A stretch of DNA of 34,030 nt from NCBI GenBank assembly GCA_024639065.1, contig JAHEJC010000017.1, positions 1 through 34,030 on the forward strand, written 5' to 3'. Below, one piece after another: positions 6,573 to 13,576 of the stretch. The notes under the pieces were generated by a model. The model was not told the DNA's origin and searched no databases. It saw only the letters and a list, made by a program, of their open reading frames with translations. A program made the translations under genes and the position numbers. The DNA is from Lewinellaceae bacterium (GTDB taxonomy: Bacteria > Bacteroidota > Bacteroidia > Chitinophagales > Saprospiraceae). Position 1 is the stretch's first letter. Each line of letters opens with the position of its first letter.

Positions 6573-7901
6573 ATGACCTTGATGAATAAGAAAAAAGCAG
6601 AACCAATAGTAGCCTTAGATATTGGTACGACCAAAGTATGTGTATTGGTCGGCAGGAAAAACGAGTATGGAAAACTCGAAATCCTTGGAATCGGCAAGGT
6701 GGAGTCTGAAGGTGTTTTAAGAGGTATTGTCTCCAATATCGATAAAACAGTAAAGGCTATTTCAGATGCCATTGATATTGCTGAAAGGACTTCAAAATTA
6801 GAAATAAAAGGAGTTCATGCAGGCATCGCGGGACAGCATATTAAAAGTCTTCAGCATCGGGGTATCCTGACCAGAGATAGCGCTCATAATGAAATCAGCG
6901 AGGAAGATGTGGATAAGTTGATCAAAGATATGAACAAACTGGTATTACCTCCTGGTGATAAGATTCTTCACATCATTCCACAAGAATTTACGGTGGATCA
7001 TGAAGAGGGAATCACTGATCCCATTGGGATGTCCGGGGTACGATTAGAAGCAAATTTTCACATTATAACGGGTCAGATTTCAGCTTCCAATAATATACTT
7101 AGATGTATAGATAGAGTAGGGCTCGTAGCTTCTGATATGACGCTTGAACCGATCGCTTCCGCAGAAGCGGTGTTAAGTGATCAGGAAAAAGAAGCAGGAG
7201 TGGCCTTGGTAGATATTGGTGGAGGAACCACGGATGTAACCATTTTTCAGGAAGGGATTATTCGACACACAGCAGTTATACCTTTTGGAGGAAATGTAAT
7301 TACCAAGGACATTAAGGAAGGATGTGTGGTTATGAATGATCAGGCTGAAAAGCTTAAGGTGAAATTTGGTTGTGCGCTTGCTGATGAGATCGTAGACAAT
7401 CGCATCATTACTATCAGCGGATTAAAAGGTAGAGACCCAAAGGAAATTTCCGAAAAGAATTTGGCCAGAATCATCCAAGCTCGGTTAGAGGAAATCTTTG
7501 ATTACGTTTTATGGGAAATTCGTAGATCGGGTTTTGAACGCAAATTGATAGCAGGCATTGTATTGACCGGTGGAGGAAGTCTATTAAAACATATTGACCT
7601 TTTGGTCGAATATCATACCGGATTGCCAGCTCGACTAGGATTGCCTGTTGAGCACTTGGCGCATGGATATGAAGAACAATTAAGCAGCCCCATTTTTGCA
7701 ACTGCAATTGGACTGTTATTAAATGGTATCAATCTTCAAGAACAGCGAGCCAGCTTAACAAAGGAAGTAATGGATATTGATGATGATGAGGATCCTATGG
7801 ATGGTCCTTATGATGAGCATAATACAGATTCATGGTATAATAAGCTTTTTATTAAGACCAAAGAGTTTTTTGAAGCCAGTCCGGATCCTGATTTAAGATA
7901 A
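6573..7901 (+). CDS. ftsA: Cell division protein FtsA
   Basis: FtsA is the actin-like ATPase that tethers FtsZ filaments to the membrane. Visible features are the phosphate-1 loop ALDIGTTKVCVLVGR near the N-terminus, the SHS2 (1C) domain region after residue 85, the phosphate-2 motif VDIGGGTTDVTIF near residue 214, and the adenosine motif IVLTGGGSLL near 330. The C-terminus has a variable acidic linker and ends in the amphipathic segment YNKLFIKTKEFFEAS, the expected membrane-targeting helix. Two ATG codons (6573 and 6582) are possible starts; the second gives MNKKKAEP. It follows ftsQ by 26 nt and precedes ftsZ by 61 nt. Confidence 0.97.
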   Translation: MTLMNKKKAEPIVALDIGTTKVCVLVGRKNEYGKLEILGIGKVESEGVLRGIVSNIDKTVKAISDAIDIAERTSKLEIKGVHAGIAGQHIKSLQHRGILTRDSAHNEISEEDVDKLIKDMNKLVLPPGDKILHIIPQEFTVDHEEGITDPIGMSGVRLEANFHIITGQISASNNILRCIDRVGLVASDMTLEPIASAEAVLSDQEKEAGVALVDIGGGTTDVTIFQEGIIRHTAVIPFGGNVITKDIKEGCVVMNDQAEKLKVKFGCALADEIVDNRIITISGLKGRDPKEISEKNLARIIQARLEEIFDYVLWEIRRSGFERKLIAGIVLTGGGSLLKHIDLLVEYHTGLPARLGLPVEHLAHGYEEQLSSPIFATAIGLLLNGINLQEQRASLTKEVMDIDDDEDPMDGPYDEHNTDSWYNKLFIKTKEFFEASPDPDLR

Positions 7902-7962: not shown

Positions 7963-9387
7963 ATGAAGTTTGATTTACCAAAAGAAGAAAGATCCATCAT
8001 CAAAGTAATTGGTGTTGGAGGTGGAGGTAGCAATGCTGTCACCCATATGTATAAGCAAGGAATTGTTGGCGTTGATTTTATTATCTGTAATACAGATAAT
8101 CAAGCTATGGAAACAAGCCCAGTCCCTACTAAAATTCAATTAGGGCCATACCTTACTGATGGAAGGGGTGCAGGAAGTAAGCCCCAAGTAGGCAAGCAAG
8201 CTTGCGAAGAGTCCATCGAAGAGATTCGAAATATCTTGATGGAAAACACCAAAATGCTATTTGTCACTGCTGGAATGGGTGGTGGAACGGGGACAGGAGC
8301 CGCTCCGATAATTTCTGGTTTAGCCAAAGAAATGGGTGTTTTGACAGTAGCCATTGTCACTATTCCATTCACCTTTGAAGGAAAACGTAGACTTGAACAA
8401 GCTAATGCCGGATTGGATGAATTGAAAGATCATGTGGATTCGATCATAGTCATTTCAAATGATAAATTAAGGGATATTCATGGCAACTTATCATTGGCTC
8501 ATGCTTTTGCACATGCAGATGACATTTTATCGATGGCTGCCAAAGGGATTGCTGAAATTATTACAGTGCCTGGATATGTCAATGTAGATTTTGAAGATGT
8601 GAATACCGTTATGAGAGATAGTGGCATATCGATCATGGGTACTGCAGTAACAGAAGGTGAAGACCGTGCTCGAAAAGCAGTGGACGAGGCATTAAATTCT
8701 CCATTACTTGAAGATAATGACATTCGGGGAGCAAAGCACATTCTTCTGAATATTACTTCTGGAAGTAATGAGGTCACTATGGATGAAGTGTTTGAAATAA
8801 CCGAGTATGTTCAAGAAGAAGCTGGATTTGGTACTGACCTCATTTGGGGGCATTGTCAAGATGAAGCGCTAGGTGATAAATTAAGTGTCACGATCATTGC
8901 AACTGGATTTGAACACAAATCAAGAGAAATCCAAGAGAAGCAACCTCAGAAAGTAAAAGTTTCTTTGGAAGAAAAACCTAAAAATGTCGAAGGCCTATTT
9001 GAAGTTGGCACTTCCGAAGGAGACGAAGTGAAAACGATCGAATTCAATCGCTATGATGAAAAACCGGACCGGTATCAACATCAAAGACCTTACAACAATG
9101 AACCTTATATAGATCCGAAAACTCAAGTCCAGGAAACAAAAGAAAAAGAGCGTACCGTTGAAATAGAAAATCAGCGGAGGGAACGATTGACCCGGATGAA
9201 TGTGAAGCTCAATAATCCAAAGAATGTAGTGGACCTGGAAACTAAGCCTGCTTATTTAAGAAGGAACGTAGAGCTAGATAATATTCCACACTCTTCCGAG
9301 AAGGATCGATCAAATTATGTGGTCGGGGATGAAGATGAACCGATAATTCGAGAAGAGAATTCCTTCTTACACGATAACGTTGATTAA
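7963..9387 (+). CDS. ftsZ: Cell division GTPase FtsZ
   Basis: FtsZ is the tubulin-like GTPase that forms the Z ring. The core has GVGGGGSNAV near residue 17, the tubulin signature GGGTGTGAAP near residue 107, and the T7-loop region with the DVNTVM stretch around residue 213. After the roughly 320-residue core comes a long charged linker rich in K, E, Q and R. A conserved FtsA-binding-type peptide, KPAYLRRNVEL, begins at residue 428 and is followed by about 36 further acidic residues. That the peptide is not at the very end differs from E. coli. FtsZ closes the dcw cluster; the hairpin array just downstream may end its transcript. Confidence 0.98.
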   Translation: MKFDLPKEERSIIKVIGVGGGGSNAVTHMYKQGIVGVDFIICNTDNQAMETSPVPTKIQLGPYLTDGRGAGSKPQVGKQACEESIEEIRNILMENTKMLFVTAGMGGGTGTGAAPIISGLAKEMGVLTVAIVTIPFTFEGKRRLEQANAGLDELKDHVDSIIVISNDKLRDIHGNLSLAHAFAHADDILSMAAKGIAEIITVPGYVNVDFEDVNTVMRDSGISIMGTAVTEGEDRARKAVDEALNSPLLEDNDIRGAKHILLNITSGSNEVTMDEVFEITEYVQEEAGFGTDLIWGHCQDEALGDKLSVTIIATGFEHKSREIQEKQPQKVKVSLEEKPKNVEGLFEVGTSEGDEVKTIEFNRYDEKPDRYQHQRPYNNEPYIDPKTQVQETKEKERTVEIENQRRERLTRMNVKLNNPKNVVDLETKPAYLRRNVELDNIPHSSEKDRSNYVVGDEDEPIIREENSFLHDNVD

Positions 9388-9470
9388 ACATACAATGAAC
9401 ATATCATTAATGATTGTACGATTTATAAAAGTCTTTCTTATTCGTCTTTTTCTGAGATTGGTTTATGGTT

Positions 9471-9500
9471 ACCGGACGTGCTCAGCGTCCGGTATTTTTC
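9471..9500 (+). terminator. Hairpin terminator, repeat copy 1
   Basis: Left arm ACCGGACG (9471-9478), 7-nt loop TGCTCAG, right arm CGTCCGGT (9486-9493), then ATTTTTCC. An extra T-A pair can close the base. It is a likely intrinsic terminator for the dcw transcript, 84 nt after the ftsZ stop. Confidence 0.75.
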
Positions 9501-9585
9501 CTTTCTTAAGTTTAGCAGGAATAGAATGCCCAAAGAAATTCAAGAATCTTTCTTATTCGTCTTTTTCTGAGATTGGTTTATGGTT

Positions 9586-9615
9586 ACCGGGCGTGCTCAG
9601 CGCCCGGTATTTTTC
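9586..9615 (+). terminator. Hairpin terminator, repeat copy 2
   Basis: The same hairpin as copy 1, with G in the left arm (ACCGGGCG) matched by C in the right arm (CGCCCGGT), then ATTTTTCC. Pairing is preserved and strengthened by one G-C pair. Confidence 0.7.
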
Positions 9616-9700
9616 CTTTCTCAGGTTTAGCAGGAATAGAATGCCCAAAGAAATTCAAGAATCTTTCTTATTCGTCTTTTTCTGAGATTGGTTTATGGTT

Positions 9701-9730
9701 ACCGGGCGTGCTCAGCGCCCGGTATTTTTC
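9701..9730 (+). terminator. Hairpin terminator, repeat copy 3
   Basis: Identical to the copy 2 hairpin (ACCGGGCG, TGCTCAG, CGCCCGGT) and followed by ATTTTTCC. The sequence just beyond diverges from copies 1 and 2, so conservation ends shortly after the hairpin and T run. Confidence 0.7.
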
Positions 9731-9815
9731 CTTCCATGGGAATAGAAGAAATAGAAACCTAAAAGAAATTCAAGAATCTTTCTTATTCGTCTTTTTCTGA
9801 GATTGGTTTATGGTT

Positions 9816-9846
9816 ACCGGACGTGCTCAGCGTCCGGTATTTTTTT
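9816..9846 (+). terminator. Hairpin terminator, repeat copy 4
   Basis: The A-T version of the hairpin (ACCGGACG, TGCTCAG, CGTCCGGT), followed by the longest T tract of the four (ATTTTTTT at 9839-9846). This is the last copy in the array and the best-formed intrinsic terminator. Confidence 0.78.
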
Positions 9847-10401
9847 AAAAGGCTATTTCAAAATAGGAACTTCAACTATGCACTCTGATAATAGTATATT
9901 TCAACGGTTTAAATAAAAGGAGCTTTTCCAGAGGGGTCATATATATTATCTTCTCTAAATAGGAAATGGACCATTCACTTAATTAAAGATAATGGAGTAG
10001 CTATTATATCGAACTGATAGAAACTGGATTGATCAATTCAGTTTTATTGAGATTGGGATAGATGCTAGCTGTAATAGAAATCTCAGCTTGTAAATATATC
10101 GGGACCCATTTGACTAATTTAATATTTTTAGATAATGTACATTTGGTACGAGAAAATAGAACGTTGAGGCAAAGTTAAGTAACCAAATAATAGTCTTTTT
10201 GACTAAGGACTAGCTTAGAAATGCTAAATATGGAAAAATTGAAATGGATTATTACATTTAGAAGATAATAAATTCAATTTGATACAAATTCATTAGAATA
10301 TGCAGTGAATTAATCAAATTTTCTACATAATGATCTTTTCACCAGCCAGGAGCTATCAACAATCCTACTCCCTAAACGTTATGAAAATGTTAATAATAGC
10401 G
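9847..10401. other. AT-rich region without genes before the SusC operon
   Basis: I see no coding frame here on either strand. Two weak items stand out. One is an imperfect palindrome at 10021-10044 (arms AAACTGGAT and ATTCAGTTT). The other is a TACATTTG at 10138-10145 that matches the Bacteroidota -7 element, with TTTG at 10109-10112 upstream at a rather long spacing of 25 nt. These could mark an untranslated transcript, but the evidence is thin. Confidence 0.4.
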
Positions 10402-10409
10402 TAACTTTG
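10379..10409 (+). promoter_or_regulatory. Bacteroidota-type promoter for the SusC operon
   Basis: TAACTTTG at 10402-10409 matches the Bacteroidota -7 consensus TAnnTTTG. A near-consensus -33 (TTA at 10379-10381, for TTG) lies 20 nt upstream. Transcription would begin near 10415, giving a leader of about 60 nt before the susC start. Confidence 0.6.
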
Positions 10410-10474
10410 CCAACTACTACGAAACACAGCGCATTCTTATTTTTCTAAGACTTAACAAACTTAAATTCTCTCAC

Positions 10475-13400
10475 ATGAAAGGAATTCTATTTTTTGTAGT
10501 TATGCTACTGAGTATAATTGCATATACCCAGACGACAGTTACCGGAGTGGTGACTGATGAGTCGGGTCAATCACTAATTGGTGCGAATGTTTTGGTGAAG
10601 GGCACCTCGATAGGGGCCGTAACTGATTTTGATGGCAACTATTCAATAGACGTGCCGGATGGATCAGGAATACTAGTTTTTAGTTATACTGGATTTCAGG
10701 AACTTGAGATTACCATAGCCGGACAAAGCACGATCAATGTAGCCTTGGCTGAAGGTACAACCCTAGATGAAATTGTGGTGACTGCCTTGGGGATCGAAAA
10801 GCAATCAAGTACTTTGGGATATAGTATAGATGAAGTGAGCGGTTCAGATCTTACCCAAGCCAGAGAATCCAATATTTTGAACTCTTTACAAGGGAAGGTT
10901 ACTGGAGTGAATATATCTAACACCAGTGGTAACTTAGGAGGATCTGCAAAGATTATCATTAGAGGAGTTACCTCGTTAAGTGGTCGGAATGATCCACTCT
11001 TTGTAGTTGATGGAATCCCCATCAGTAATAATCAAACTACCACGGGTTCGCGTATTACTGGTAACCGTGATTTTGGTAACGGTGCTTCTGTCATCAATCC
11101 GGATGATATTGCGACTATGAGCGTTTTGAAAGGGGCAGCCGCTACGGCACTTTATGGTTCCAGAGCTGCAGCCGGAGCTATTATCATTACGACTAAACGA
11201 GGTGAATCGAATGGAGGAAACGCGAAGGTATCTATAAATAGTTCCCTCAGGTTTGATGATCTTTTTATTACGCCCGGTTATCAACAAGATTATGCCATGG
11301 GTGCCTTGAATAAATATGACTCTTCTTCAGTCGGCTTTGATTGGGGACCTAGAATCGTCGGCCAGACCGTAGATAATCTTCCGGCGAAAGGAGGACCTGG
11401 TCAGCTGCAGGCGGTTGAAGATAATGGAGTAAAAAAGTTTTTTGAAACTGGAAAAAGTTATATAAATAATCTAGCCATTTCTGATGCCAGTGATCGGATG
11501 GATTATCGATTATCGTTTGGTGCTTTGAATCAGACCGGAATTGTGCCAGGCTCTAGTCTAGACCGCTATAATATTAGTTTAAATGCTGGAGTTAATCATA
11601 ATGCCAACTTTAGCTCTAGGTTTGGAGTCCAATTCATAAATACGAATTCTGAAGGGACTGCTGCTGCTGGAGCTAATGATCCAAATATTATTGGCTTGTC
11701 TTCATTTAGCAGTAACCTCGACCCGGACTGGTATACACCCTGGATCGATGATGCAGGTAACCAAATCAACAACGTTACACCTACTTCAAATAATCCATAT
11801 TGGCTTAGGTTTGAAAATAAGAACGAACGAGAAGACAATAGGGTCTTAGCTAATTTTTCCATGACGTATAATCCTTTTGATAATCTGTCAATTTCCGGAA
11901 AGGTTGGTTATGATTATGACCAAGATAATCGCTTGTTAACCAATCGAAAAGGAACTGCTCAGCGGATTGACGGGAACTTTATTGTAGATAAACTTAATAG
12001 AACCCAACTAAATACCGATATTATTGCGAATTACAATACAGATTTAGGAGAAAGCTTAACCCTGAGCGTTTTGGGTGGATTTAATTATAACAATCGAACT
12101 TTTTCCAGGGAAACGTTAACTTCTACATCCTTGCTGGTTCCGGAATTATTTGATCCAGGAAATACGGCTCAAAATGTACCGACCAGGGCATTTTCGGAAC
12201 AAGTGTTATTTGGTTTGTATGGTCAAGCAGAATTGGGTTACAAAGATTTTTTAACCCTCTCATTAACCGGAAGGAATGACTGGTCTTCCACATTACCAAC
12301 TAATAATAATTCCTATTTCTATCCATCGGCAAGTGCGGCATTTTTATTTTCTAATGCCTTTAATATTTCCGATAAAGTATTGTCCTATGGTAAATTGAGA
12401 GCCAGTTATGCCCAGGTTGGTAATGATACTGGCCCGTACCAATTGGATTTTAACTTTTTCCCAATTACAACTGCAACCGGACAATATTCTTTGAATATTA
12501 ACTTTCCATTTAATAGCCGGTTGGCATTTGCAAAAAGTAACACCATTCCTCCTGAAAATTTGAAGCCTGAGTCACAAGTCAGTTACGAGCTTGGCGCTGA
12601 GCTGAAATTTTTTGACTATCGATTGGGATTAGATGTTACTTATTTCAAATCCGAAAATACCGATCAAATATTGGCATTACCGATTCCTGAAACTACAGGA
12701 TTTGGTTTTTTAAGAACCAATGTAGGTCAGGTAAATACTTCCGGATGGGAGATTACCTTGGACGCGACACCCATAAGCACCAAGAACTTTAGGTGGGAAA
12801 CCATGGTGAACTTTTCTAATCCTAAGACCGAAGTTGTAAAGCTAGCTGAGGGCGTCGATCGAGTATTAATAGCGAGTGGATTTAGCAGTGTACAAGTAGT
12901 GGCAGAAGAAGGCAAGGGTTTTGAATTGTTTGCGATTCCATTCTTGATAGATTCTGCTAGTGGAAGACCGCTGATCAATCCTGTTGATGGAACACGACAG
13001 GCAGGAATTGCTAAAACCATGGGATCTGTATTACCGGATTTCTCAATGGGATTTGTAAACACTTTTAGACTTGGAAATTTCTCAGTCACCGGTACTGTTG
13101 ATTGGAGATCAGGGGGCGTAATGAAATCATCCACCGTTGAAAATCTACAAACTGGCGGATTGGTGATAGAAACAGCTGGAAATAGGCAAGGAACATTCAT
13201 TGACCGGTCAGGCGTATTAGACAACGGTGATGGCACCGTAAGGGAAAACGACATTCCATTGTCCAGTACGACGGCATTTTGGCAAAGTATAGATGATAAT
13301 AGTATTGCGGAGCCGTTTATTTTTGATGCATCCTATGTTAAGTTGAGGGAATTGGCGATTACCTATTCTTTGCCTGAGTCTGTTTTAGGAAGCACTTTTA

Positions 13401-13576
13401 TACGTGGAGCTAGCATTGGGGTCGAAGGACGAAATGTGGCGCTGCTTTATTCAAAAGTTCCACATGTAGATCCGGAAAATACCTTGTTTGGTTCGGGCGC
13501 TGATGGCTTTGGAATTGAAAGAGCTTCTACGCCTTCCACCCGGAGCCTTGGATTTAATCTGAGATTAACTTTCTAA
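10475..13576 (+). CDS. SusC/RagA-type TonB-dependent outer-membrane transporter
   Basis: This 1033 aa protein is the outer-membrane barrel of a SusCD uptake system. It has an N-terminal signal peptide (about 20 residues, ending before QTTVTG) and a carboxypeptidase-D regulatory-like domain at about residues 22-100 (TGVVTDESGQSLIGANVLVKG). A TonB-box-like segment follows (DEIVVTALGI, near residue 98). Next is a plug domain with the SusC signatures VTGVNISNTSG and DPLFVVDGIPI, and then a 22-strand-type barrel to the C-terminal phenylalanine of SLGFNLRLTF. The SusD-like gene starts 18 nt downstream. In this family TonB energy drives import of glycans, peptides or other oligomers; the substrate cannot be read from the sequence, and no glycoside hydrolase or peptidase gene is adjacent. 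Confidence 0.95.
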   Translation: MKGILFFVVMLLSIIAYTQTTVTGVVTDESGQSLIGANVLVKGTSIGAVTDFDGNYSIDVPDGSGILVFSYTGFQELEITIAGQSTINVALAEGTTLDEIVVTALGIEKQSSTLGYSIDEVSGSDLTQARESNILNSLQGKVTGVNISNTSGNLGGSAKIIIRGVTSLSGRNDPLFVVDGIPISNNQTTTGSRITGNRDFGNGASVINPDDIATMSVLKGAAATALYGSRAAAGAIIITTKRGESNGGNAKVSINSSLRFDDLFITPGYQQDYAMGALNKYDSSSVGFDWGPRIVGQTVDNLPAKGGPGQLQAVEDNGVKKFFETGKSYINNLAISDASDRMDYRLSFGALNQTGIVPGSSLDRYNISLNAGVNHNANFSSRFGVQFINTNSEGTAAAGANDPNIIGLSSFSSNLDPDWYTPWIDDAGNQINNVTPTSNNPYWLRFENKNEREDNRVLANFSMTYNPFDNLSISGKVGYDYDQDNRLLTNRKGTAQRIDGNFIVDKLNRTQLNTDIIANYNTDLGESLTLSVLGGFNYNNRTFSRETLTSTSLLVPELFDPGNTAQNVPTRAFSEQVLFGLYGQAELGYKDFLTLSLTGRNDWSSTLPTNNNSYFYPSASAAFLFSNAFNISDKVLSYGKLRASYAQVGNDTGPYQLDFNFFPITTATGQYSLNINFPFNSRLAFAKSNTIPPENLKPESQVSYELGAELKFFDYRLGLDVTYFKSENTDQILALPIPETTGFGFLRTNVGQVNTSGWEITLDATPISTKNFRWETMVNFSNPKTEVVKLAEGVDRVLIASGFSSVQVVAEEGKGFELFAIPFLIDSASGRPLINPVDGTRQAGIAKTMGSVLPDFSMGFVNTFRLGNFSVTGTVDWRSGGVMKSSTVENLQTGGLVIETAGNRQGTFIDRSGVLDNGDGTVRENDIPLSSTTAFWQSIDDNSIAEPFIFDASYVKLRELAITYSLPESVLGSTFIRGASIGVEGRNVALLYSKVPHVDPENTLFGSGADGFGIERASTPSTRSLGFNLRLTF

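Follow-up and report, generated by a model that had tools for sequence, protein, structure and literature searches.

The level of FtsZ is a main determinant of division timing, and regulation of ftsZ from the 3′ end of its mRNA has, to our knowledge, hardly been described. Intrinsic (Rho-independent) terminators are like the element reported here in that a G+C-rich hairpin and then a U run follow the final gene of an operon, but our element adds a conserved linear part and a second stem, is specific to ftsZ and has repeatedly been amplified in tandem. The ftsZ-DE candidate RNA motif, reportedly described in a 2017 motif survey as lying downstream of ftsZ, resembles it in what its name implies, a conserved ftsZ-downstream element, and our element has no match among Rfam 15 families of any name. 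CcsR1-4 of Rhodobacter are said to be tandem homologous small RNAs (sRNAs). AbcR1/AbcR2 of Sinorhizobium meliloti are also of this kind (PMC3712013). Both sets are similar to our locus in holding several similar RNA units in tandem, but they are unrelated in sequence and belong to another phylum, and our units have no recognisable promoter. In Bacteroides thetaiotaomicron there are candidates for UTR-derived sRNAs (PMC7366714); there, as here, a conserved region ends at the mRNA's own terminator and Hfq is absent. Unlike them, the element described here is known from sequence alone.

The window, which is the whole stretch of DNA analysed, comprises 34,030 nucleotides of contig JAHEJC010000017.1 of a Lewinellaceae bacterium. 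In it, ftsZ (7963–9387, forward strand; Pfam Tubulin and FtsZ_C) is preceded by ftsA (6573–7901) and bears the element at its 3′ end. TRF identified a single array at 9432–9844, with a period of 115, 3.6 copies, 93% matches and no indels, which starts 45 bp past the ftsZ stop codon. An earlier note on this DNA had described four units of 115-bp period, each with a hairpin and a T run, and both TRF and the sequence confirmed this. On the forward strand, unit 1 occupies 9432–9546 (115 bp), unit 2 9547–9661, unit 3 9662–9776, and unit 4 9777–9846. Unit 1 contains a conserved linear element, CGTCTTTTTCTGAGATTGGTTTAT (9443–9466, forward strand), which is common to many relatives behind ftsZ; a predicted upstream stem, GUCUU (9444–9448)/GAGAU (9454–9458); and the terminator hairpin TACCGGACGTGCTCAGCGTCCGGTA with its T run (9470–9499, forward strand; hairpin 9470–9494). 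The hairpins of units 2, 3 and 4 lie at 9585–9609, 9700–9724 and 9815–9839, the last one being followed by a T run at 9840–9846. Every unit thus has a 10-bp terminator hairpin and then 5–7 T, the stable stem-loop and U run of an intrinsic terminator, and the array region holds four terminator-like sites against 1.5 expected from shuffles of the region. Unit 4 is the element alone, without the trailing spacer. The spacer of unit 3 has diverged, as the note had also seen, with about a quarter of its positions differing.

The next gene, a SusC/TonB-dependent receptor by Pfam (10475–13576, forward strand), lies outside the element, and the co-directional SusC/SusD pair to which it belongs begins about 630 bp beyond the array. 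The approximately 600 bp in between (9850–10470) contain no ORF of 100 aa. An ORF at 9380–9685 that spans the array was taken as chance, with no Pfam match and a period that is not a multiple of three. When the rest of the window was searched for a sequence complementary to the core, the best candidates had at least three mismatches.

BLAST searches with the unit against its own genome, 60 relatives, plasmids and phages returned only the four copies, and the hairpin as an exact pattern was absent from viral contigs. This apparent uniqueness is misleading. FtsZ of the nearest relatives examined is only 68% identical, so non-coding DNA would be expected to be unrecognisable. In one of the relatives (G013), ftsZ is likewise followed by a tandem array, of similar sequence and different period (172). 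Counted genome-wide and in relatives, the exact unit occurs only here, while a related element lies behind ftsZ in many genera of the family.

The conserved element lies immediately after ftsZ and reads CGTCTTTTTATA...ATGAGATTGGTTTATTG; next comes a terminator hairpin whose sequence changes freely. Its core motif was found at 38 loci, in 49 copies, among 144 ftsZ downstream regions (from Saprospiraceae and also some named genomes, with a few entering twice), that is, in about a quarter of the regions. Across these 38 loci the hairpin varies freely while CGTCTTT and TGAGATTGGTTTAT persist. The usual form consists of GGATTTCGTCTTTTTATA, 10–25 nt, ATGAGATTGGTTTATTG, a few spacer bases, the terminator hairpin with a loop that is often UCYCC, and a T run. 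In the window the form is short, and the CGUCUU block can itself make the upstream stem. Several single-copy genomes share CGTCTTTTTC-TGAG-T-GGTTTAT right before a terminator of unrelated sequence. The first core motif begins 25–310 nt after the ftsZ stop codon. About three quarters of the ftsZ regions have no recognisable copy, so the function is either lineage-bound or the motif has drifted past detection. Other conserved pre-terminator stretches were seen downstream of ftsZ at further loci (L090, L104 and L110; L027, L029 and L035; L046 and L075; L080 and L052), for example GTGAGATTGCTGAGATTGATGATGG, GAGGTTAAGTTAA and GGTTCTGAGTGTTTTAAC, and these are possibly drifted versions of the element. 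In one genome (G117, locus L078), two different 26-bp tandem arrays lie directly behind the ftsZ terminator.

Covariation supports the pairs of the terminator stem, as in a conserved structured RNA motif. All seven of its seven pairs have changed on both sides, and 90.7% of cells are paired. The covariation score was 0.817 against 0.236 in shuffles (0/500 as high) and at most 0.227 when the pairing was slid. Conservation of the stems in relatives, on which the earlier note had let its reading depend, was thus found, and the upstream sequence is conserved as well. In the upstream stem, AUGAGAU pairs with a partner such as UCUYAU. MAFFT left this stem unaligned and its pairs were examined by complementarity, which exceeded that of shuffles in 33 elements (0/200). 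It is less secure than the terminator stem because its 3′ strand hardly varies; one clear double change was found, in G067 (UUUCAU/AUGAAA). Single-sequence folds of chosen examples mostly gave a two-hairpin shape, with z of −2.5 to −5.5. A pseudoknot between the loop and upstream sequence (CUGAG/CUCAG in the window) suits the window, G013 and some relatives, but it fails in others and was dropped.

The conserved half of the unit varies only by a paired swap, as previously noted. Copies 1 and 4 have A-T (A9476/T9488 and A9821/T9833), copies 2 and 3 have G-C (9591/9603 and 9706/9718), and this half is otherwise identical. The probability that two random substitutions in the 68-nt half hit pairing partners and retain Watson-Crick pairing is 0.0013. 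Such changes recur: in G172, copies 1 and 3 differ from copy 2 by a window-like A-T to G-C swap, and other paired changes are present in G101 and G094. The change keeps the terminator stem intact, as selection would want. However, when template switching occurs at a hairpin, one arm is copied onto the other and the loop can become inverted (PMC8794818, PMC8604942), and a paired change is achievable in one such event (PMC8794818). Because of this, the paired change alone proves little and need not reflect two selected mutations. A-T could also have become G-C by way of a G-U intermediate. Terminator loops corresponding to the reverse complement of the common UCYCC type were found in G078, G114, G034, G032, G012 and G142 (loci L100, L241, L260, L318, L270 and L276), as if the loop had been flipped between the stem arms. 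They look like products of template switching, and because its sequence is sometimes inverted, the loop is no strict requirement at the RNA level.

More than one copy of the element was found at 10 loci in nine genomes of eight genera, the window's genus and seven others. Besides the window (four copies, period 115), these are G013 with three copies and one diverged (period 172), G172 with three (195), G065 with three (209/197), G032 with two (206), G190 and G101, which are of the same genus, with two each (118 and 122), G063 with two, the second of which is split by an insert, and G094 with two arrays. The first array of G094 has two copies (period 126); the second has three (186/204) and lies on another contig that is cut at its start, so it is not seen beside ftsZ. 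The arrays are mostly independent, because their periods and spacers differ.

Some of these loci show further features. At the G063 locus (L250, G063:C433:4870–6470), the duplicate comprises the ftsZ end and the element, and an insert of roughly 1 kb interrupts it within the element; this insert has opposing small reading frames, which by eye are like a toxin-antitoxin cassette, and the inverted ends CTGAAGTG/CACTTCA. In G032 (L318, C1 about 44524–44820), a long form with two extra hairpins between the CGTCTTT block and ATGAGATTGG has been tandem-duplicated almost unchanged, with 147 of 148 alignment columns equal. Both spacers of the G065 array (L304) keep a small hairpin, CTACCCATACGACGAATACGGTAG, amid diverged sequence.

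Within the arrays, the element has diverged less than the spacer. Among copies 1–3 of the window, 13 of 52 spacer columns are variable against 2 of 63 element columns (Fisher P 0.0006). In the five arrays with comparable spacers, there are 11 substitutions in 382 element positions and 57 in 482 spacer positions, an approximately 4-fold lower divergence of the element (P 7e-7, treating positions as independent). Gene conversion between the copies might account for part of this apparent constraint. These results bear on the idea that an ordinary ftsZ terminator was duplicated locally and neutrally, the paired change being a product of hairpin template switching and of homogenisation among the copies. 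Template switching would give the paired changes and the loop inversions in one event each (PMC8794818, PMC8604942), the unit sequence itself is unique to the window's genome, and copy number differs within one genus (g74), G074 having one copy and G172 three. But a homologous element with an invariant linear part occurs in many genera, arrays occur in eight, and the element changes more slowly than the spacer, and we therefore regard neutral duplication as rather improbable.

A covariance model (R1) was built from 20 elements and run on 120 relatives and on 299 genomes of the order. At E≤1e-3, 23 of the 120 genomes matched, and in 22 of these 23 the match adjoins ftsZ by tblastn or by coordinates (G094 was counted by its C96 coordinates). 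In the exception, G023, the match is weak. Another weak match, in G178, lies away from ftsZ. Eight further loci from the 299-genome set, among the matches followed up, likewise adjoin ftsZ, and no genome of that set outside Saprospiraceae matched at E≤1e-3. R1 had no match elsewhere in the window's genome (G000), nor is the core motif enriched genome-wide there. A simpler pattern search across the family gave counts near the reversed control in most genomes, with several of its best matches behind ftsZ. A dispersed genomic repeat of the REP or BIME kind was rejected, as all four copies are at this locus and R1 found none elsewhere in this genome. Likewise rejected was a general habit of tandem terminators: in a sample of 0.77 Mb of the window's genome, TRF gave 10 arrays of period at least 30, the window's included, and only the window's holds terminators. 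In Rfam 15, no relevant covariance model matched at the gathering threshold or at E≤1, an L20 leader match at E 0.9 under the relaxed threshold being taken as chance. No published description of the element was found in the open-access literature covered, a scope outside which the survey with the ftsZ-DE motif falls, and the element is apparently undescribed so far. Should ftsZ-DE prove to include this group, only the arrays would be new and the element itself already known.

The element is always on the ftsZ coding strand and always just 5′ of a terminator. This placement, together with the folding and the stem covariation, argues against a DNA-level site such as a protein-binding repeat in place of an RNA element. 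DNA-binding proteins commonly have their sites repeated in tandem, and the loops are conserved up to inversion; even so, we consider a site of this kind very improbable.

The earlier note had also proposed that four serial terminators might insulate the dcw transcript from the uptake operon. In its general form, this would mean that the copies merely reinforce the stop after a highly expressed operon, the upstream part being a sequence-specific enhancer of termination. A strong hairpin with a U run in every unit, the covariation of the hairpin and the co-directional next gene of the window are all consistent with it. However, the gene downstream of the arrays has the same orientation in four cases and the opposite one in three, generic terminators need no conserved linear sequence of 25–60 nt, and the motif is specific to ftsZ rather than general in the genome. 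Plain insulation also gives no reason for the linear sequence before the hairpin to be far better conserved than the hairpin itself. Insulation alone is thus disfavoured because the arrays show no orientation bias and the linear sequence is what is conserved, and reinforced termination as the whole reason appears unlikely. A simple local repeat is disfavoured as well. The other part of the note's interpretation, selection on the RNA structure, is supported by the stem covariation across genera and by the element being kept while the spacers drift.

We consider it probable that the array consists of four tandem copies of an RNA element that is specific to the family, lies in the ftsZ 3′ UTR and is joined to a terminator, and that this element has been amplified repeatedly and its copies are constrained. 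Its recurrence in many genera and its multiplication point to a genuine function under selection where the ftsZ message ends. The predicted RNA would comprise a CGUCUUUUUAUA block, a small stem with AUGAGAU as its 3′ strand, a single-stranded UGGUUUAUUG linker and, in its 3′ part, a strong hairpin of the intrinsic-terminator type, whose short loop is often UCYCC, and then a U run. We infer that the element is transcribed with ftsZ and that the hairpin and U run would end the ftsZ (dcw) transcript. A further role beyond termination is suggested because the linear part is conserved past what a terminator needs. The linear part and the upstream stem would most likely be a binding site for an RNA or protein partner, or the body of an sRNA, at the 3′ end of the ftsZ mRNA, through which FtsZ might be affected.

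TAnnTTTG is the promoter consensus of Bacteroidota, and this motif was found in none of the 160-nt regions upstream of 59 copies. The copies thus show no recognisable promoter of their own, as would mark an independent sRNA gene. Because no promoter motif precedes them, they probably depend on ftsZ transcription and read-through. Hfq was found in none of the 120 genomes by a search that, as a control, found it in 5 of 14 known genomes, and an Hfq-dependent sRNA was rejected on this ground. These two results also weigh against a special case of the favoured reading, in which the 3′ end of the ftsZ mRNA is processed to a trans-acting RNA of 70–90 nt with its own terminator and tandem copies raise its dosage. 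Its anatomy of a conserved linear region plus terminator, its recurrent multiplication and the UTR-derived candidates of B. thetaiotaomicron (PMC7366714) are in line with such an RNA, which we regard as possible but the less likely outcome.

For the favoured reading as a whole, the tandem copies would have originated repeatedly by local duplication and unequal recombination, and the later copies, probably reached by read-through from ftsZ transcription, would keep the element while their spacers drift. The main caution concerns these later copies. With a terminator in each unit they should seldom be transcribed, which is awkward beside their constraint, and their value is unexplained unless read-through is common.

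The arrays and their relatives provide clean cases from nature in which hairpins have undergone paired changes and loop inversions, and the arrays form a natural copy-number series for experiments. A covarying, ftsZ-linked element that is tandem in at least eight genera is a concrete and testable handle on control at the 3′ end of ftsZ in Bacteroidota. As a tentative suggestion, the end of the ftsZ message in Saprospiraceae might be an undescribed regulatory RNA, released or acting in place, which would tune division or another process, and whose dose lineages would set through the number of tandem copies.
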